Source: Priapulus caudatus
Lineage: Eukaryota; Priapulida; Priapulimorpha; Priapulimorphida; Priapulidae
Direction of reading: 5' to 3'
Assembly (NCBI RefSeq): GCF_000485595.1
Contig: NW_014579373.1
Coordinates: forward strand, 5,896 to 35,830
Length of the DNA stretch: 29,935 nt
Shown here piece after piece: positions 8,495-27,832 of this stretch; positions within the stretch are counted from its first letter, which is position 1, and each line of letters starts with the position of its first letter. The notes below the pieces were generated by a model. It saw only the letters and a list, made by a program, of their open reading frames with translations, was not told the DNA's origin and ran no database searches. The position numbers and the translations under genes were made by a program.

Positions 8495-9350
8495 AGCGTA
8501 TATATACGCCCTATAGACGTCTAGAAATCATGAACAGTAAGATTGCACCTGCAGAGAAATCGTGCTGTTCTCTCAAGTGACGTAGCTATTGTGACAGCTC
8601 CGCTGTGTCCGGTGTAAAAACGGGATCCGACTACTTACTGGAAATATGCATCACATAAACTGCCAGGCAAGTTTCTAGTGGAGTAATCTGTGATTATTTA
8701 GCATGATTGATATATATGCATGTTGTGTACGTGCTGAAATATATACATGTATGTACTTTTCATTATTTTTTGTTTCATTCTTATTCATGGATGCTGACCG
8801 TGGACGCCTTCTACTGTTGCAAAACACCACGTTCACGCGCGCAACGCGCCTTCTCGCACTTGCCTTGACGGCTCGCCACAAATCGGGGTTACAGATTCAA
8901 CAATGGCAATGGCGTGGCGCGTTCGCGCCTGGAATTACACTCGGCTGCCAGATTCGCGTTCACGCATTCCATTGGGAGAAAAAATGTCAGCACGTATGAA
9001 ACTAGCTAGTCAGAGTGGACTGTTTGGAACAACAGAATAGAAGACAACCGTACAGCCACACGCGCAGGACACCACAGAGAGTGGGCGAATACAAGGGGTC
9101 ACTGCCCTAATGTATCCGCAGTCCCATTTACCTAGTGAGACCGTGTTAATCTTAACAATGTTCAGCAGGTCAGAGGTTCATCAACTGCTGATTGCTAATA
9201 TCGCGCTACATAGTGGACAGCATTGGTGCGCAGTTACATTCCACTATCTGCTCTGCGTAATCCAGCATAGTGATGACGGCCCGGTGGTAGACATAACCCA
9301 CAGATGATAGTCCGGGAGCTAGAAGGGTCCACCGTGCACCCCCCCCCCCA
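8495..9350. other. No gene recognised
   Basis: Contains a CG-richer patch (8800-8990) with no supported exon. It ends in an 11-C homopolymer (9339-9349) that sits exactly at the left breakpoint of the 2-kb duplicated block. Confidence 0.4.
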
Positions 9351-9603
9351 CTACAACTTATGGCCCGCGTATGCGGGACGTATGGGCATACGCTGGCATA
9401 CGTCGGAAAATTTTGAGCATGCTCAAAATTTTTTGAAGACCTTGCCGTACTACGACGTATACCAGCGTGCTTCAGCGTGCTTCAGCGTGCTTTTAACTTA
9501 TACAAAGCTTACCCATAACTTATTCGACGTACGCCAGCGTATTCACCAAATTTTTTATACGTCCGGCATACGCTGGCTAAATCGTCAATGTGTGACAGGG
9601 CCA
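9351..9603 (+). mobile_element. Right-end fragment of a B-type transposon
   Basis: Matches the right end of element B (19474-19724). It includes the phased AACTTAT/ACGTAT words, the terminal GTGTGACAGGGCCA and the following TTA. There is no left terminal repeat. The fragment arrived with the 2-kb block rather than by its own insertion. Confidence 0.8.
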
Positions 9604-10417
9604 TTACGGACGTTACATTTTAGTGTTGTTACGGACGTTACATGTATGAAAATATAATGAAAAACAACTGTAAAGAGCTACATCTACGCTGTTTATGTAC
9701 GCATAACCTCAAACAACAATATAATTATAAGAAGTGTATCTATAGTGCTATCTTCTCATGCCCACATTCCTAAATCATAGGTTCATCATGCATGGTTAGG
9801 TCTATAAGTATAACTGACAGACCAGTTTACTAATTAAAATGTATTGATATTCATGAATGTTTCTGGCCCAAACGCCTATGATGAGCTATTTCGTTCACCT
9901 ACTTGTTTCAAGTCTGTTTCTGTTGACTTTGTTTTTAATTTGTTTTGCATACATTAGTTGTTCCTACGTCAGGCAAGCTTCAGGCAAAACTCAGGCAAGC
10001 ATTGGGGTTGTGTCATGGGTAACTTTTGTGAAGGAAGTATGCATAAAAATGAAATACATTAGTAAAGTGGTCTATTCTAAGTACAGATCTATACAAAACA
10101 ATGAGTGTAGTAAATGAAATGAAAAACAGTTCTAGATAGGTCATGTTCAATTCTGCTCCATAGCAACTACCGTATACATTAGGCTGAAGCTTTATGGAAA
10201 TCCACTTCATCCTTCTTCATATCTATATCAAACAATAGCCTGCTCCCCATCATCACAATTTTGGGTGAATCCAATTTAGCAATTACATCTTCTTTGGGGT
10301 GAATAAAGACTTGTTCTTCTCAATATACTCTACCCATACAAAGACCTCTCATAATGTGGTTTATTTCATGAAATTTATCATTTTTACCAAGTTAATGTTT
10401 CCCTTTAATAATTTTAG

Positions 10418-10501
10418 ACAAGTGCTTTGGGCTTGTTGGCAACCAAATTTATGAGTCACTTGCTCGACCTGGCAAGCGAGGGGAAAAATTGTAGCACCCT
10501 G
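10418..10501 (+). repeat. CAAGTG...TAGCACCCTG dispersed repeat, copy 1
   Basis: Carries ACAAGTGCTTTGGGCTTGTTGGCAACC, split here as ACAAGTGC, then GGCAACCA, then CACTTGCTCGACCTGGCAAG, A-rich, then GTAGCACCCTGG. The same order of words recurs at 20533-20617 (the duplicated copy) and in a better preserved form at 22603-22690. Superfamily unknown. Confidence 0.6.
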
Positions 10502-11213
10502 GTGCATGCATGCATGCTCTTATTCACAATCAGAACTCTTGCTCAAAGGATTGTACACAATTATTGTGCTTAGGCTAAAATGTCATTACCCTTTGACATC
10601 TACATACTAACCAAAAGGCCTTCCTATATATTTAAGAATAAACTGCTGGATGACATTCATGTGTTCATAGTGTGTAGCCGCCCAGGACAAAACCATTTTT
10701 GAAGAGGGGTCATATAGCTCATGTAAGAGCAGGCTTTCATTTTTAAGGGGCGCGATCGCGCTCGCGCTCCACCGCGCACCCGAAATTATGCCATGGTGCG
10801 CGCATCATCGCGCCTCATAAAAGTGGTTGAAATCGCGCACCAAAAGTATGTCTATTATGTTGAAATAGCGCTCCATAGAGTTCTCAATGTAGGGGGGTAC
10901 AAAAAGGTTAGCAACAAACAACAATTTGTGGTGTGTAAGTAACTGAACGTATGGCAGAGGTACAGGTCTGGTTACTACCCTCTGGTTTATATATATATAT
11001 AAATACAACTAAACAACAGCATCCAAATACAGGTACCTACACGGTATAGCCACAAGTTACCTGCTCGTTTTCTACTATACGTGGCGAGAAGTGGTTTTCT
11101 GCCGACGTGAAACAGTCGTAGGGCTGGAGGGGCTACATACGTGGCTATTACGTACAAGTAATTTGGCTAGTTTGTTGATGGATTGTGATGATATTTTGTG
11201 CTGAAATATGCAG

Positions 11214-11447
11214 GTACATGGATTAGAATCTCTAAGGATGGAAATCAGACTAAATAAAACAAGTTTATTTTTACATCCGATCAACTCTTTTATTAATCTG
11301 TGTGCTAGTGTTGGGTTGTTGGATGAAAAAGACCCTCCTAGCTCCCGGCCTATGACGCCCAATAACGCCACCTCTGACACAATAAACAAATTCTGGCAAT
11401 ATGATTCGTACGATTTTAAAAGCTCATTCAACACACGTTCATTGCAA
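11214..11447 (+). CDS. Candidate internal exon, 78 codons, unknown protein
   Basis: An open stretch of exactly 234 nt lies between a plausible 3' splice site (AAATATGCAG|GTACATGG) and 5' splice site (TTGCAA|GTTAGT). It is phase 0 at both ends. The peptide starts VHGLESLRMEIRLNKT and continues SLFLHPINSFINLCASVGLL, then a polar stretch DEKDPPSSRPMTPNNATSDT, then NKFWQYDSYDFKSSFNTRSLQ. A helical half followed by a Pro/Ser/Asn-rich half looks protein-like. I do not recognise the family and see no neighbouring exon with confidence. A 119-codon minus-strand frame overlaps it (11075-11434), which lowers certainty. The first half of the exon is duplicated at 21331-21447, where one extra A shifts the frame. 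Confidence 0.4.
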
Positions 11448-17066: not shown

Positions 17067-17248
17067 TTAACACTCCTGTATTGTCTGATTACCTTAATTA
17101 AAGTTGTTATGGCCCTGTCACACTAGAGCGTATAGCCTTACGTATGCGAGCGAATGAATATTTTTTGGAAAAAGCCATCATACGCTGGCATACGTCGACC
17201 CGGGCACCTAAAAAAATCTGGATTTTTGTGGATTGGTCGTATACATAA

Positions 17249-17319
17249 CGTATACACAATGAATTGAACGTATACACAACGAATTGAACGTATACACAAC
17301 GAATTGAACGTATACACAA
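17249..17319 (+). repeat. 20-bp tandem repeat within element A array
   Basis: Unit CGTATACACAACGAATTGAA, three full copies (17249, 17269, 17289) plus a half unit at 17309. The next CGTAT words follow at 17320 and 17331, so a 20-bp period merges into an 11-bp period. Confidence 0.9.
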
Positions 17320-17485
17320 CGTATGTCCAACGTATGTTATAGCGTATCATTAACATTATAAATAACTTATGGGAGCGTATCCGAGCGTATGGTGACACGA
17401 GTGCCTGGCGTTCTCCACGAATGGCCAGCGTATGGGCAGCGTATGAGTAGCGCATGGTGCAGCGTGATCGGCGTTCACGAACGAT

Positions 17486-17508
17486 CACGTGACGTACCAG
17501 GATAAATA
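17486..17508 (+). promoter_or_regulatory. Putative core promoter of element A
   Basis: ATCACGTGACGTA (E-box CACGTG at 17486-17491) is followed 9 bp later by GATAAATA (17501-17508). The equivalent place in element B has ATCACGTGTCGTA and TATAAAAA. The position, just before the coding remnant and after the left array, suggests the element's own promoter. This is inference from sequence only. Confidence 0.5.
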
Positions 17509-17563
17509 CCGTGCCGGCGGTGGCCGCTCTCGTCATAAATAACAAAGCATCTACCAAGCGATT

Positions 17564-17986
17564 GTATGCCCCTTCCAGTGGCAGACGGAGAGCAAAAGAT
17601 AACCCATTGCACAACCAAAACCATCACCACCACCTGCAGAATAGCCAGACCAGCCTGACCAGCCTGACCAGCGTGACAAACCTGACCAACCAGACCAACC
17701 TGACCAGCCTAACCCTCATCCTACCGGCCATACACAGTCCATGTCAAGATCCAGAGAACCTCGCTCACCCCACTCCTCCGTCCGCGCAAAGGTTCTGTCG
17801 TTTCTGTTGCTCTAACTCTAGGAAGCCCAATGACCAGGCAAAGGAGAAGAGGCTACGAAGATTGTCTTTTCACTTACAGTAGAACAGGAGGAGAGTATGC
17901 TGGAGTTCTTGCAAGCAAATCCAATTATCTGGGACTCACCCGCAACGCGCCCGCAACACGCTTACAGTACGCCAAATGAACGCTAG
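17564..17986 (+). pseudogene. Decayed ORF with MADF-like motif in element A
   Basis: PIF/Harbinger elements commonly encode a transposase plus a Myb/MADF-type DNA-binding partner. Downstream of the putative promoter, an ATG at about 17559 opens only ~30 codons. Another frame then reads a Pro-Asp-Gln repeat made of 9-nt units. A third frame, open from 17834 to a TAG at 17984-17986 (50 codons), reads SLTVEQEESMLEFLQANPI then IWDS. The pattern LxFLxxNPxxWD is typical of the start of MADF domains. The domain is cut short after about 17 residues and the frames do not connect, so the gene is dead. The assignment rests on one short motif. Confidence 0.4.
17648..17719 (+). repeat. 9-bp tandem repeat (GACCAGCCT)n, 8 units
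   Basis: Eight 9-nt units with small variations (GACCAGCCT, GACCAGCGT, GACAAACCT, GACCAACCA). The period is a multiple of three and the frames stay open through it, which fits a low-complexity coding linker in the decayed protein. Confidence 0.85.
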
Positions 17987-18392
17987 CTGTACGGTAGAAA
18001 CACGTTAAATACGTTATTCCGTCGCCAGGCCATACGTACAATACGTCTGAATACGTCAAGATACGTTGCAAATACGTCCAATATAGGTTAGAAGTAAGTT
18101 ACTCAATCGTTGTCAATACGCTAGGGTGTACGTTACACCCTCAGCGCGACGTATCTCGACGTATGATACACGTACCTCTAACATACCTCTAGCGTATGTC
18201 AACGTATATGCCTAACGTACTCACAACGTATCTATAAGCGTATGCCTAACCTAATGAATTATACGTTGTCTATACGCCTGAAAGTTTTTGAACAACCCAA
18301 AACATTTTTTCTGTCTCGGCGTACCTCGAAGTACGACAGCGTATCACAGCGTGCTGTTAACGAATACAACTTATTCCTAAGCGTACTCCTAA

Positions 18393-18715
18393 AGGGCCGG
18401 ACACACCAGGCGATTGCATCGGGCGATGGCATCGCCCGATTCTTGCGCGTGCAGTGCGCTTGGCTGATGAACTCTGATTGGCTGATGAATTGTAATCGGG
18501 CGATGTTATCGCCGGTCGCGGACACACCAGGCGATTGCATCGGGCGATGGCATCGGCCGATGGCATCGGGCGATAATTCAAAACGTTTTGATCTGTGCGA
18601 TGGCATCGGCCGATGGCATCGGGCGATGAAATCGGCGGCGATTGAGTGGACACACCAGGCGATTTTCACGCCGATGCCATCGGCCGATGCCATATCGCCT
18701 GGTGTATCCGGCCCT
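18393..18715. mobile_element. TAA-flanked MITE nested in element A
   Basis: The left end AGGGCCGGACACACCAGGCG and the right end (minus strand) AGGGCCGGATACACCAGGCG are inverted, flanked by TAA (18390-18392 and 18716-18718). The length is 323 bp. The interior repeats GCATCGGGCGATGGCATCGG-type words and an internal GGACACACCAGGCGAT copy at 18531. The TIR and 3-bp TAA duplication fit PIF/Harbinger MITEs. Open frames on both strands across it are artefacts of the repeats. Confidence 0.85.
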
Positions 18716-18807
18716 TAACGTATATCAACGTACACCAACGTATTAGCAAAAAATCTCATACGCTGGCATACGTTAAGGCTATACGCTCTAGTGTGACAGG
18801 GCTATTA

Positions 18808-19724
18808 TGGCCCTGTCACACATTGACGATTTAGCCAGCGTATGCCGGACGTATCAAAATTTCTCTAAAACGCTGGCTATCGGCTGAACTATCGATGTTT
18901 TTTTCAATTTTGAGCGTATACATAGCGTATTCATAACGAGTTGGACGCATACTTAACGTATTAGTAACGTATATATAGAACGTTTCGATAACTTATAGAT
19001 AACTTATACCAACGAATGCTTAGCGTGTGCTGGGCGTTCACAACTTATGCCAACGATAGTCTAACTTATGCATAGCGCGCGGCAGCGTATCGCCGACGAT
19101 CACGTGTCGTAGCCTATAAAAAGGCTCCGCTCGACGATTCAATCATAACGCGCACTAGACATCGCGTATCAACATCACCGTCGCAGTATCAACATGCAAT
19201 ACCATTTTTATATACCAATTCCCCTAAACGCTGCCAATACGCCATTATACGGTAGCTGTAAGTTAGAAACACGTTCAGTAAGTTCTGTGGTCGTCCGGAA
19301 CACGTCAAATACGTCAATATGCGTTGGAGACAAGTTACACATAGGTTCAAAGCACGTTACTCATAAGTTAGAAATAAGTTTTGGGTACGCTAGACATTAT
19401 CTCGACGTATTTCGACTTATGAGTAACTTACAAGTAACGTGTGTGAACGTGTGTCAACGATTGAATAACTTATCTACAACTTATGGCCCGCGTATGCGGG
19501 ACGTATGGGCATACGCTGGCATACGTCGGAAAATTTGAGATGCTCAAAATTTTTTGAAGACCTTGCCGTCTACGACGTATACCAGCGTGCTTCAGCGTGC
19601 TTCAGCGTGCTTTTAACTTATACAAAGCTTACCCATAACTTATTGACGTATACGCCAGCGTATTCACCAAATTTTTTATACGTCCGGCATACGCTGGCTA
19701 AATCGTCAATGTGTGACAGGGCCA
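18808..19724. mobile_element. Element B: A-related MITE with phased arrays
   Basis: Left end TGGCCCTGTCACACATTGAC and right end (minus strand) identical, continuing GATTTAGCCAGCGTATGCCG. TTA flanks at 18805-18807 and 19725-19727; the left TTA is shared with element A. Order inside: TIR, 18 plus-oriented AAC(G/T)TAT-like sites (18915-19097), CACGTG and TATAAAAA (19101-19122), a leader-like stretch, 12 minus-oriented sites (19262-19378), 10 plus-oriented sites (19406-19502), GCGTGCTTCA x3, TIR. It has no coding remnant, so it looks like an internal-deletion derivative of an A-type element. Confidence 0.85.
19101..19122 (+). promoter_or_regulatory. Putative core promoter of element B
   Basis: CACGTG (19101-19106) followed by TATAAAAA (19115-19122), with an ATG at 19194. 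Matches the arrangement at 17486-17508 in element A. The open frame from 19194 to 19535 has no recognisable domain and overlaps the phased arrays, so I do not call it a gene. Confidence 0.5.
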
Positions 19725-20532
19725 TTACGGACGTTACATTTTAGTGTTGTTACGGACGTTACATGTTGAAAATATAATGAAAAACAACTGTAAAGAGCTA
19801 CATCTACGCTGTTTATGTACGCATAACCTCAAACAACAATATAATTATAAGAAGTGTATCTATAGTGTATCTTCTCATGCCCACATTCCTAAATCATAGG
19901 TTCATCATGCATGGTTAGGTCTATAAGTATAACTGACAGACCAGTTTACTAATTAAAATGTATTGATATTCATGAAATGTTTCTGGCCCAAACGCCTATG
20001 ATGAGCTATTTCGTTCACCTACTTGTTTCAAGTCTGTTTCTGTTGACTTTGTTTTTAATTGTTTTGCATACATTAGTTGTTCCTACGTCAGGCAAGCTTC
20101 AGGCAAACTCAGGCAAGCATTGGGGTTGTGTCATGGGTAACTTTTGTGAAGGAAGTATGCATAAAAATGAAATACATTAGTAAAGTGGTCTATTCTAAGT
20201 ACAGATCTATACAAAACAATGAGTGTAGTAAATGAAATGAAAAACAGTTCTAGATAGGTCATGTTCAATTCTGCTCCATAGCAACTACCGTATACATTAG
20301 GCTGAAGCTTTATGGAAATCCACTTCATCCTTCTTCATATCTATATCAAACAATAGCCTGCTCCCCATCATCACAATTTTGGGTGAATCCAATTTAGCAA
20401 TTACATCTCTTTGGGGTGAATAAAGACTTGTTCTTCTCAATATACTCTACCCATACAAAGACCTCTCATAACGTGGTTTATTTCATGAAATTTATCATTT
20501 TTACCAAGTTAATGTTTCCCTTTAATAATTTT

Positions 20533-20617
20533 AGACAAGTGCTTTGGGCTTGTTGGCAACCAAATTTATGAGTCACTTGCTCGACTGGCAAGCGAGGGGA
20601 AAAATTGTAGCACCCTG
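20533..20617 (+). repeat. CAAGTG...TAGCACCCTG dispersed repeat, copy 2
   Basis: The copy inside the second 2-kb block, differing from 10418-10501 by one deleted C in GCTCGA(C)CTGG. Confidence 0.6.
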
Positions 20618-21330
20618 GTGCATGCATGCATGCTCTTATTCACAATCAGAACTCTTGCTCAAAGGATTGTACACAATTATTGTGCTTAGGCTAAAATGTC
20701 ATTACCCTTTGACATCTACATACTAACAAAAGGCTTCCTATATATTTAAGAATAAACTGCTGGATGACATTCATGTGTTCATAGTGTGTAGCCGCCCAGG
20801 ACAAAACCATTTTTGAAGAGGGGTCATATAGCTCATGTAAGAGCAGGCTTTCATTTTTAAGGGCGCGATCGCGCTCGCGCTCCCACCGCGCACGCCGAAA
20901 TTATGCCATGGTGCGCGCATCACATCGCGCCTCATAAAAGTGGTTGAAATCGCGCACCAAAAGTATGTCTATTATGTTGAAATAGCGCTCCATAGAGTTC
21001 TCAATGTAGGGGGGTACAAAAAGGTTAGCAACAACAACAATTTGTGTGGTGTAAGTAACTGAACGTATGGCAGAGGTACAGGTCTGGTTACTACCCTCTG
21101 GTTTAATATATATATTAATACAACTAAACAACAGCATCCAAAATACAGGTACCTACACGGTATAGCCACAAGTTACCTGCTCGTTTTCTACTATACGTGG
21201 CGAGAAGTGGTTTTCTGGCCGACGTGAAACAGTCGTAGGGCTGGAGGGGCTACATACGTGGCTATTACGTACAAGTAATTTGGCTAGTTTGTTGATGGAT
21301 TGTGATGATATTTTGTGCTGAAATATGCAG

Positions 21331-21447
21331 GTACATGGATTAGAATCTCTAAGGATGGAAATCAGACTAAATAAAAACAAGTTTATTTTTACATCCGATC
21401 AACTCTTTTATTAATTGTGTGCTAGTGTTGGGTTGTTGATGAAAAGA
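21331..21447 (+). pseudogene. Truncated copy of the exon candidate
   Basis: The same acceptor (AAATATGCAG) and first ~117 nt as the exon at 11214-11447, but with an extra A in the A-run after CTAAATA, a lost C in TTAAT(C)TGTG, and no second half. Sequence after about 21447 is unrelated. Confidence 0.6.
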
Positions 21448-27667: not shown

Positions 27668-27697
27668 TTAGGGTTAGGGTTAGGGTTAGGGTTAGGG
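27668..27697 (+). repeat. Interstitial telomeric repeat (TTAGGG)5
   Basis: Five perfect TTAGGG units, flanked on both sides by unique sequence. Confidence 0.95.
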
Positions 27698-27832
27698 TAC
27701 ACTTCTGTAGTACAAGTCTGGTACACTTTGTGCATACATATATGTATGTACTAGGGGCCAACAGCCACTCCGTGGCAGCCATGAAGGGGCCCACGATGAA
27801 GGGCCATGATGGGGGAATTGGTTTTCAGTTGA

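Follow-up and report, generated by a model that had tools for sequence, protein, structure and literature searches.

Why should a small transposon carry the same seven-letter word at almost every turn of its double helix? The question is raised by element B, a non-autonomous PIF/Harbinger transposon in a 29,935-nucleotide stretch of the genome of the priapulid Priapulus caudatus (assembly GCF_000485595.1, contig NW_014579373.1, positions 5,896 to 35,830), hereafter called the window. In B, the directional 7-bp word AACGTAT/AACTTAT recurs with a period of about 10.6 bp. A word placed once per turn presents the same face of the groove to one side, thus a protein sitting on each word would line up there. 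We consider it very likely that the arrays are bound by some sequence-specific protein. It is also probable that they are the sites of one element-encoded protein, most likely the MADF protein of the family, which would occupy one helical face and serve in end recognition and probably in promoter control. The binding, the identity of the protein and its cooperativity are what we infer; the arrays themselves can be described directly.

Phased arrays in element B and its sister element

An earlier note on this DNA had listed 40 word positions in B, and 39 of them hold the stated base (C in plus, G in minus orientation); position 19075 is a G, its C being at 19076. Scored with a position weight matrix (PWM, cut-off 4) refined on the B family consensus, B contains 55 sites, and 35 pairs of neighbours on one strand are 9-12 bp apart; in 500 shuffles there were 0.4 such pairs on average and never more than 4. 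The cut-off was passed by 32 of the 40 listed sites (12/18, 11/12 and 9/10 by array), a partly circular count because the matrix was refined on the family consensus. The pattern spans B from one terminal inverted repeat (TIR) to the other, with extra minus sites at 19230-19251, 19389 and 19515-19525 and extra plus sites at 19576-19659. Element A, directly to the left of B, contains 56 sites and 33 phased neighbours (shuffle maximum 3). In the rest of the window, 900-bp tiles away from A, B and a duplicate at 9.35-9.60 kb hold at most two phased pairs each.

The predicted periodicity of 10-11 bp above shuffled sequence was borne out both by these PWM pairs and by motif-blind autocorrelation, in which the lag-11 z-scores were 6.8, 4.1 and 3.8 for the three successive arrays and 7.2 for the whole of B (300 dinucleotide shuffles). 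The Fourier analysis suggested at the same time agreed for the two plus arrays and failed for the minus array between them: in array 1 none of 300 shuffles reached the top peak, a 5.2-bp harmonic, with 10.6 bp in second place; array 3 (19406-19502) was significant at 10.6 bp (3/300 shuffles); and the peak of the minus array was not significant (53/300). The fitted periods of the three arrays are 10.71, 10.49 and 10.65 bp.

Comparison with A separates the word from the letters between words. The two elements are about 75% identical where aligned, and the homologous base of 48 of the 55 mapped B sites is also a site in A, on the same strand. At the seven word positions A agrees with B in 87, 71, 98, 71, 86, 84 and 92% of cases, against 54-67% at spacer positions; the central C is almost invariant, and the base after it is the one that alternates between G and T. 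Pooled identity is 298/354 (84%) in the word and 124/202 (61%) in the spacer (Fisher p 3e-9). Because a misregistered alignment could mimic such a difference, the comparison was repeated without gaps in the transposase-side inner array, where the series of spacings is nearly equal in A and B. At the best register (65% identity, 45% at the next shift), agreement was 80/112 in the word and 33/64 in the spacer (p 0.009).

In other copies, cores were expected to be better conserved than spacers. This held between A and B but barely within the B family, where 31 copies gave 0.031 changes per site in the core and 0.036 in the spacer outside CpG, and 0.042 in both within CpG. These copies belong to a recent burst, being dead descendants of a single recent master that drift neutrally, and for this reason it is the comparison between A and B that carries information.

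B is a non-autonomous PIF/Harbinger element. TTA flanks both A and B on both sides, as a 3-bp TWA target duplication, and the TIR arms of B (56 nt, 18807-18862 and 19670-19725) are 96% complementary. In related fuller elements we found a DDE_Tnp_4 transposase (PF13359, in the decayed relative L056) and a second gene from the Myb/SANT/MADF group of domains (PF10545, in a B-type element on contig C130, locus L099), of which A retains a truncated exon. The CACTA termini of En/Spm-type elements were not found at the ends of B, which read TGGCCCTGTCACAC.

A search of the 385-Mb genome gave at least 114 pieces matching B (40 of 167 candidates scored). From 39 places taken, 9 were dropped (outside 840-1030 bp, or containing N), and the remaining 30 were aligned with the window copy; these 31 copies are 87-99% identical to their own consensus. 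Twenty copies, that of the window included, matched from base 1 to 919 and had readable ends. Matching 3-bp duplications, read by eye, flank 15 of them (14 TWA, that is TTA or TAA, and one TCA), and in the other five one flank is TAA and the opposite one TTA.

A genome scan for the TIR gave 114 matches (54 forward, 60 reverse) and none with a reversed-pattern control. Among the 100 matches listed, 20 pairs lie within 6 kb and are 730-2297 bp long. No array-free miniature with these TIRs was seen among the 20 pairs from the matches listed (none is below 700 bp), the 60 unpaired listed places being uninformative on this point; in the shortest, a 730-bp copy (L043), the right-hand arrays are short by about 217 bp. 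At C105:423478-423613 and C268:319001-319136, two TIRs of the same orientation stand 106 bp apart, possibly one element inserted beside the end of another.

In A, a deletion has removed the transposase together with its TATA box and stops just inside the right array, so that the arrays are kept and a truncated MADF exon is joined to the right array. Nested in this right array, at about 18394-18714, lies a separate element whose ends are of the GGCCGGACACACCAGGCGAT type and which contains a 13-bp CGATGGCATCGG repeat. A coding explanation was considered for an open reading frame in A (17511-17882) and rejected: the frame is without protein relatives, and the truncated MADF exon overlaps it in another frame. 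Elsewhere in the window, a direct duplication of about 2 kb (about 9350-11272 and 19475-21389, some 10.1 kb apart, 97-100% identical in the listed pieces) includes the right end of B and suggests a tandem duplication or an assembly of two haplotypes. Five TTAGGG repeats lie inside the contig, at 27668-27698 of the window.

Table 1. Features of elements A and B and of the duplicated end, in window coordinates.
Feature	Positions	Strand	Remarks
Element A, Harbinger sister of B sharing its array plan	17110..18804	+	TTA duplications 17107-17109 and 18805-18807
Element A, plus array	17249..17493	+	upstream of and up to CACGTG and ATAAATA
Element A, right-hand arrays	17960..18382	.	minus block, then mixed plus/minus blocks
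Element B, non-autonomous PIF/Harbinger	18808..19724	+	TTA target duplications 18805-18807 and 19725-19727
Plus array 1, word AACGTAT/AACTTAT	18915..19097	+	precedes the MADF-side TATA box; homologous array ahead of the L099 MADF gene
CACGTG	19101..19106	+	between array 1 and the TATA box; common to element A (17487-17492)
TATA box TATAAAAA, former MADF gene promoter	19115..19122	+	equal box ahead of the MADF ATG in L099
TATA box TATATAAAAA, transposase side	19205..19214	-	position with respect to the transposase ATG taken from L056 by homology
Minus array, words toward the transposase-side TATA box	19230..19389	-	
Plus array 2 (array 3 of the text), inverted relative to the minus array	19406..19502	+	
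Outer blocks toward the right TIR	19515..19693		minus pairs 19515/19525 and 19682/19693 on either side of a plus run (19576-19659)
Second copy of the right end of B	9350..9606	+	within the direct duplication about 10.1 kb away

Arrays with other words in related families

The plan is not peculiar to A and B. We examined 30 transposase loci: L069, which is the query's own, and 29 relatives with 56-80% identity where aligned. Without any motif, lag 11 was the highest of lags 4-40 in the 680-bp upstream stretches of 22 of the 30. With a hidden Markov model (HMM) of phased 11-bp units, the 600 bp upstream of the transposase match start scored above all 180 Markov nulls (maximum 41.3) in 27/30, while the transposase coding sequences of the same loci scored 24-40, within the null range in every case. 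Unit lengths of 8 and 14 were both worse than 11 in 28/30 (the exceptions are L094 and L095, and L077 is nearly equal at 14). About 24 loci have a phased signal free of confounders. The loci are not independent, as their upstream DNA forms seven clusters, one of them of 18 loci possibly joined by simple repeats; nevertheless every cluster contains at least one positive locus, that of L078 by way of a B copy.

What changes between families is the word. The learned words are AACGTAT (A, B and L069), AGCGnac (L070), GTTGCGT (L075, L079 and L086) and its reverse ACGCAAc (L074), TGCGnTc (L084, with related words in L083 and L090), TAcgGCG (L085), TcCCGAc (L087) and taCGCTC (L093); nearly all have CG in common. 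L097 gave different motifs in two learning runs and is unreliable. Spacing and block order were read from 16 sequences, namely 14 loci chosen from the 30 because their signal was strong, and two consensuses. Their 402 same-strand neighbours 9-12 bp apart have a mean spacing of 10.57 bp (272 at 11, 67 at 10, 56 at 9 and 7 at 12), and by eye a reverse block is followed by a forward block in 13/16 (not in L093, L096 and L097).

When 25 loci (L077, L080, L088, L094 and L095 dropped) were pooled with the B consensus, the autocorrelation peaked at lags 11 and 22. Further out it reaches +3.8, +2.5 and +2.3 points at lags 31, 42 and 53, compared with +2.5, +0.8 and -0.4 at 33, 44 and 55; the pattern is that of multiples of about 10.5-10.6 bp. 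At short range, spacings of 9 and 11 bp are preferred to 10 over the 25 loci (+2.2, -0.7 and +9.6 percentage points for lags 9, 10 and 11), although a spacing of 10 is frequent in A and B.

In the strongest test, motifs were learned separately in the inverted blocks, and in A and B at both ends as well, for six of the 30 loci and for A and B, with block limits set from the earlier run on the 16 sequences. The 25 same-family pairs have a mean cosine similarity of 0.85 (minimum 0.68), the 128 different-family pairs a mean of 0.48 (maximum 0.77). Slippage does not homogenise blocks of opposite orientation, so their shared word is most simply explained by a common requirement for recognition.

These results bear on the proposal that the arrays are an 11-bp tandem repeat, expanded by slippage and since decayed, without function. 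Tandem Repeats Finder (TRF) does mark parts of A as tandem repeats, gaps of at least 2 bp among B copies measure 9-11 bp in 22 of 36 cases inside the arrays and in 0 of 8 outside (counted per copy, not per event), and within the B family the core changes at nearly the rate of the spacer. Slippage may supply the turnover of units. Spacers as conserved as cores between families would be expected of a neutral minisatellite, yet between A and B, one family pair, the cores are conserved above the spacers; slippage by itself does not give inverted blocks the same word; the layout recurs in several families with different words; and lags 31, 42 and 53 exceed the multiples of 11 (33, 44 and 55) in the pooled signal. 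Simple tandem-repeat ancestry, named in the earlier note as what would undo its reading, is therefore disfavoured, and we regard it as the least probable explanation.

Rotational nucleosome positioning, or intrinsic curvature, from phased dinucleotides is disfavoured less strongly, though improbable. CG dinucleotides peak at 10.4-10.7 bp in all ten arrays tested (z 1.9-5.5). WW dinucleotides peak at 10.2-10.6 bp in six of the ten and lie 2.4-4.9 bp from CG in all ten (half a turn being 5.3), as rotational positioning might have it. In L070, L075, L079 and L087, however, the WW peak is off-period (9.5, 11.5, 11.5 and 11.3 bp) while that of CG stays at 10.5-10.6. Moreover, nucleosome signals are independent of strand and of any 7-bp word, whereas the array words are directional, set in inverted blocks and family-specific. 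The alternative, raised already in the earlier note, is thereby weakened.

The two genes beside the arrays and the candidate binding protein

Fuller relatives show what the arrays of A and B once adjoined. The left side of the C130 element (L099) consists of a TIR, a plus array, CACGTG, a TATA box, a 5' leader and a two-exon MADF gene, whose product matches PF10545 (E 1.4e-6, 29 bits, cut-off 22) and, when spliced, is the NCBI prediction LOC106805847. In L056, a longer relative, the transposase (E 2.7e-6, 27.5 bits, cut-off 24.8) is read from the far end in the opposite direction, and a TATA-like box lies between its start codon and the minus array. On C130 a transposase relative, 80% identical, lies beside the B arrays and is convergent with the MADF gene; another B copy interrupts this side of the element next to the TATA box (L013, L078), about 100 bp of the minus array are missing, and the nearest array is that of the inserted copy. 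Among 21 MADF loci (C391 counted once), 11 have a listed transposase match within 6 kb and 10 have none; the nearest match, read by eye, is convergent at 11/11. By homology, the arrays of A and B are placed immediately upstream of the two predicted promoters of a two-gene Harbinger element, and their innermost words point to the TATA box.

Between the array and the MADF-side TATA box, ACGATCACGTG is kept in A and B, and CACGTG is not an array word. The conservation of this E-box in both elements implies that host factors probably act at the promoter, and a host bHLH or bZIP factor may act at CACGTG.

Which protein would occupy the arrays? The MADF/Myb-type binder proposed in the earlier note has a counterpart in the family, which does encode a MADF protein; its choice over the transposase remains a matter of likelihood. 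The MADF domain is of a three-helix, Myb/SANT-like kind, and an AlphaFold2 model of the protein has helices at 82-94, 106-123 and 127-149, mostly with a predicted local distance difference test score (pLDDT) above 90, although the mean pLDDT is 69.5 and the predicted template modelling score (pTM) 0.39; further modelled helices at 230-297 could serve self-association. A sequence search of solved structures with this protein gave only weak, unrelated-looking matches (best E 0.005). The Priapulus protein (L099:1544-2645) is 85% identical (79% coverage) to one of the pipefish Dunckerocampus and 84% (77%) to one of the hagfish Myxine. This is far above what is expected of a fast-evolving transposon protein and suggests horizontal transfer. 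In Diadema, identity to the MADF protein reaches 65%.

Binding by the transposase itself, or by a host transcription factor, is an unlikely alternative. The transposase begins with an arginine-rich stretch, the E-box beside the MADF TATA box is conserved, and the third helix of MADF does not obviously follow the array word. But a host factor would not be expected to differ in specificity from one transposon family to the next, as the words do, and in characterised PIF/Harbinger elements, so far as the accounts consulted go, the Myb-like protein is the demonstrated DNA binder (PMC9710019, PMC2836001).

Several observations weigh against MADF arrays on one face of the DNA. Core and spacer change at nearly equal rates among the B copies. 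The phased-unit HMM signal is missing in three of the 30 loci (L088, L094 and L095), and three others are confounded: simple repeats affect L077 and L080, and in L078 the stretch tested contains a B copy. Some array words are very degenerate, and the similarities of same-family and different-family motifs overlap (from 0.68 up, and up to 0.77), the values of 0.76-0.77 being reached by the sister families L084 and L085, by A and L079, and by others. A TATA-like box follows the array in 12/16 strong-signal sequences at varying distance, in a scan without a chance control, and no constant distance from the last site to the TATA box was found in these 16. The third helix of MADF, in which 18-25 of 26 residues are similar in eight of nine relatives compared (the ninth is without most of the helix), does not visibly track the word, in a comparison that excludes the MADF proteins of families with other words. 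The WW period may contribute to the rotational setting of nucleosomes. Finally, the order of spacings shows no compensation of phase (permutation, mean z 0.03, 34 runs), so that occupancy of a single face is argued from the mean period of 10.57 bp and its persistence. All together, of the cooperative one-face surface first proposed, a sequence-specific protein of the element is well supported, while cooperativity and one-face occupancy we only infer.

A MADF-based mechanism can nevertheless be suggested. MADF monomers would sit on successive turns along one face of the DNA, building an oriented, probably cooperative assembly along each subterminal region. The assembly would recruit the transposase and mark the element ends, also in non-autonomous copies like A and B. 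Because the arrays abut both TATA boxes, their occupancy would also regulate the two convergent genes by their own product, perhaps as autorepression, either sign being possible. With a shift in the specificity of the protein, the whole array would be rewritten and the spacing kept.

Known systems and significance

Element-encoded proteins on subterminal repeats are already known, from CACTA elements, Galileo, Hermes and Harbinger3_DR. The Myb-like protein of zebrafish Harbinger3_DR is described as recognising a 9-bp subterminal motif (PMC9710019) and as needed for nuclear entry of the transposase (PMC9710019, PMC2836001). For a Harbinger-derived fish MADF protein, its own promoter region was reported as bound in chromatin immunoprecipitation (ChIP) and regulated, and an electrophoretic mobility shift assay (EMSA) on a candidate promoter motif as negative (PMC11893794). 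The Priapulus elements share with Harbinger3_DR and with rice Ping/mPing the 3-bp duplications, the DDE_Tnp_4 transposase, the separate MADF gene and subterminal recognition. Unlike those elements as described, B is filled by about 55 sites, one per turn, in ordered inverted blocks beside both promoters.

The En/Spm (CACTA) protein TnpA offers a parallel in an element-encoded DNA-binding protein (here putative), subterminal repeats and words that diverge between families; TnpA blocks transcription from subterminal sites, and the repeats are cis-determinants that non-autonomous copies must keep (PMC2613891). Superfamily and protein are unrelated, however, and the resemblance is functional only. 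We know of no helical phasing in the subterminal repeats of En/Spm. Galileo/Foldback elements, with tandem repeats in long TIRs, also have repeated binding sites in their terminal regions, but the sites described in the portion consulted are three THAP sites about 70, 570 and 710 bp from the end, with no mention there of a one-per-turn array (PMC3688188). In the hAT element Hermes, short subterminal words are bound by BED domains in a position-sensitive, cooperative manner, and the binding domain, unlike MADF, is part of the transposase (PMC10368747). Among the matches listed in a search of the open-access literature, no title or abstract opening brought helical phasing together with Harbinger or MADF. 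Within this established type, arrays of such length with one site per turn, a conserved order of blocks and words particular to each family look new.

A bolder generalization, which we hold as doubtful, is that in this Harbinger clade a MADF assembly of one subunit per turn and tens of protomers per end would be at once the scaffold for end recognition and the switch of the genes, its 7-bp code being rewritten in concert while spacing and block order are inherited. If the proposal of MADF arrays is true, each family records naturally how a DNA-binding protein and dozens of its sites coevolve while the helical spacing stays invariant. The clade would then be an animal test system for array-wide changes of specificity and for the way in which weak sites, arrayed together, achieve specificity in a large genome. 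It would show how a transposon couples recognition of its ends to control of its own genes, and Harbinger families with decayed proteins could be found by the arrays as a new signature.
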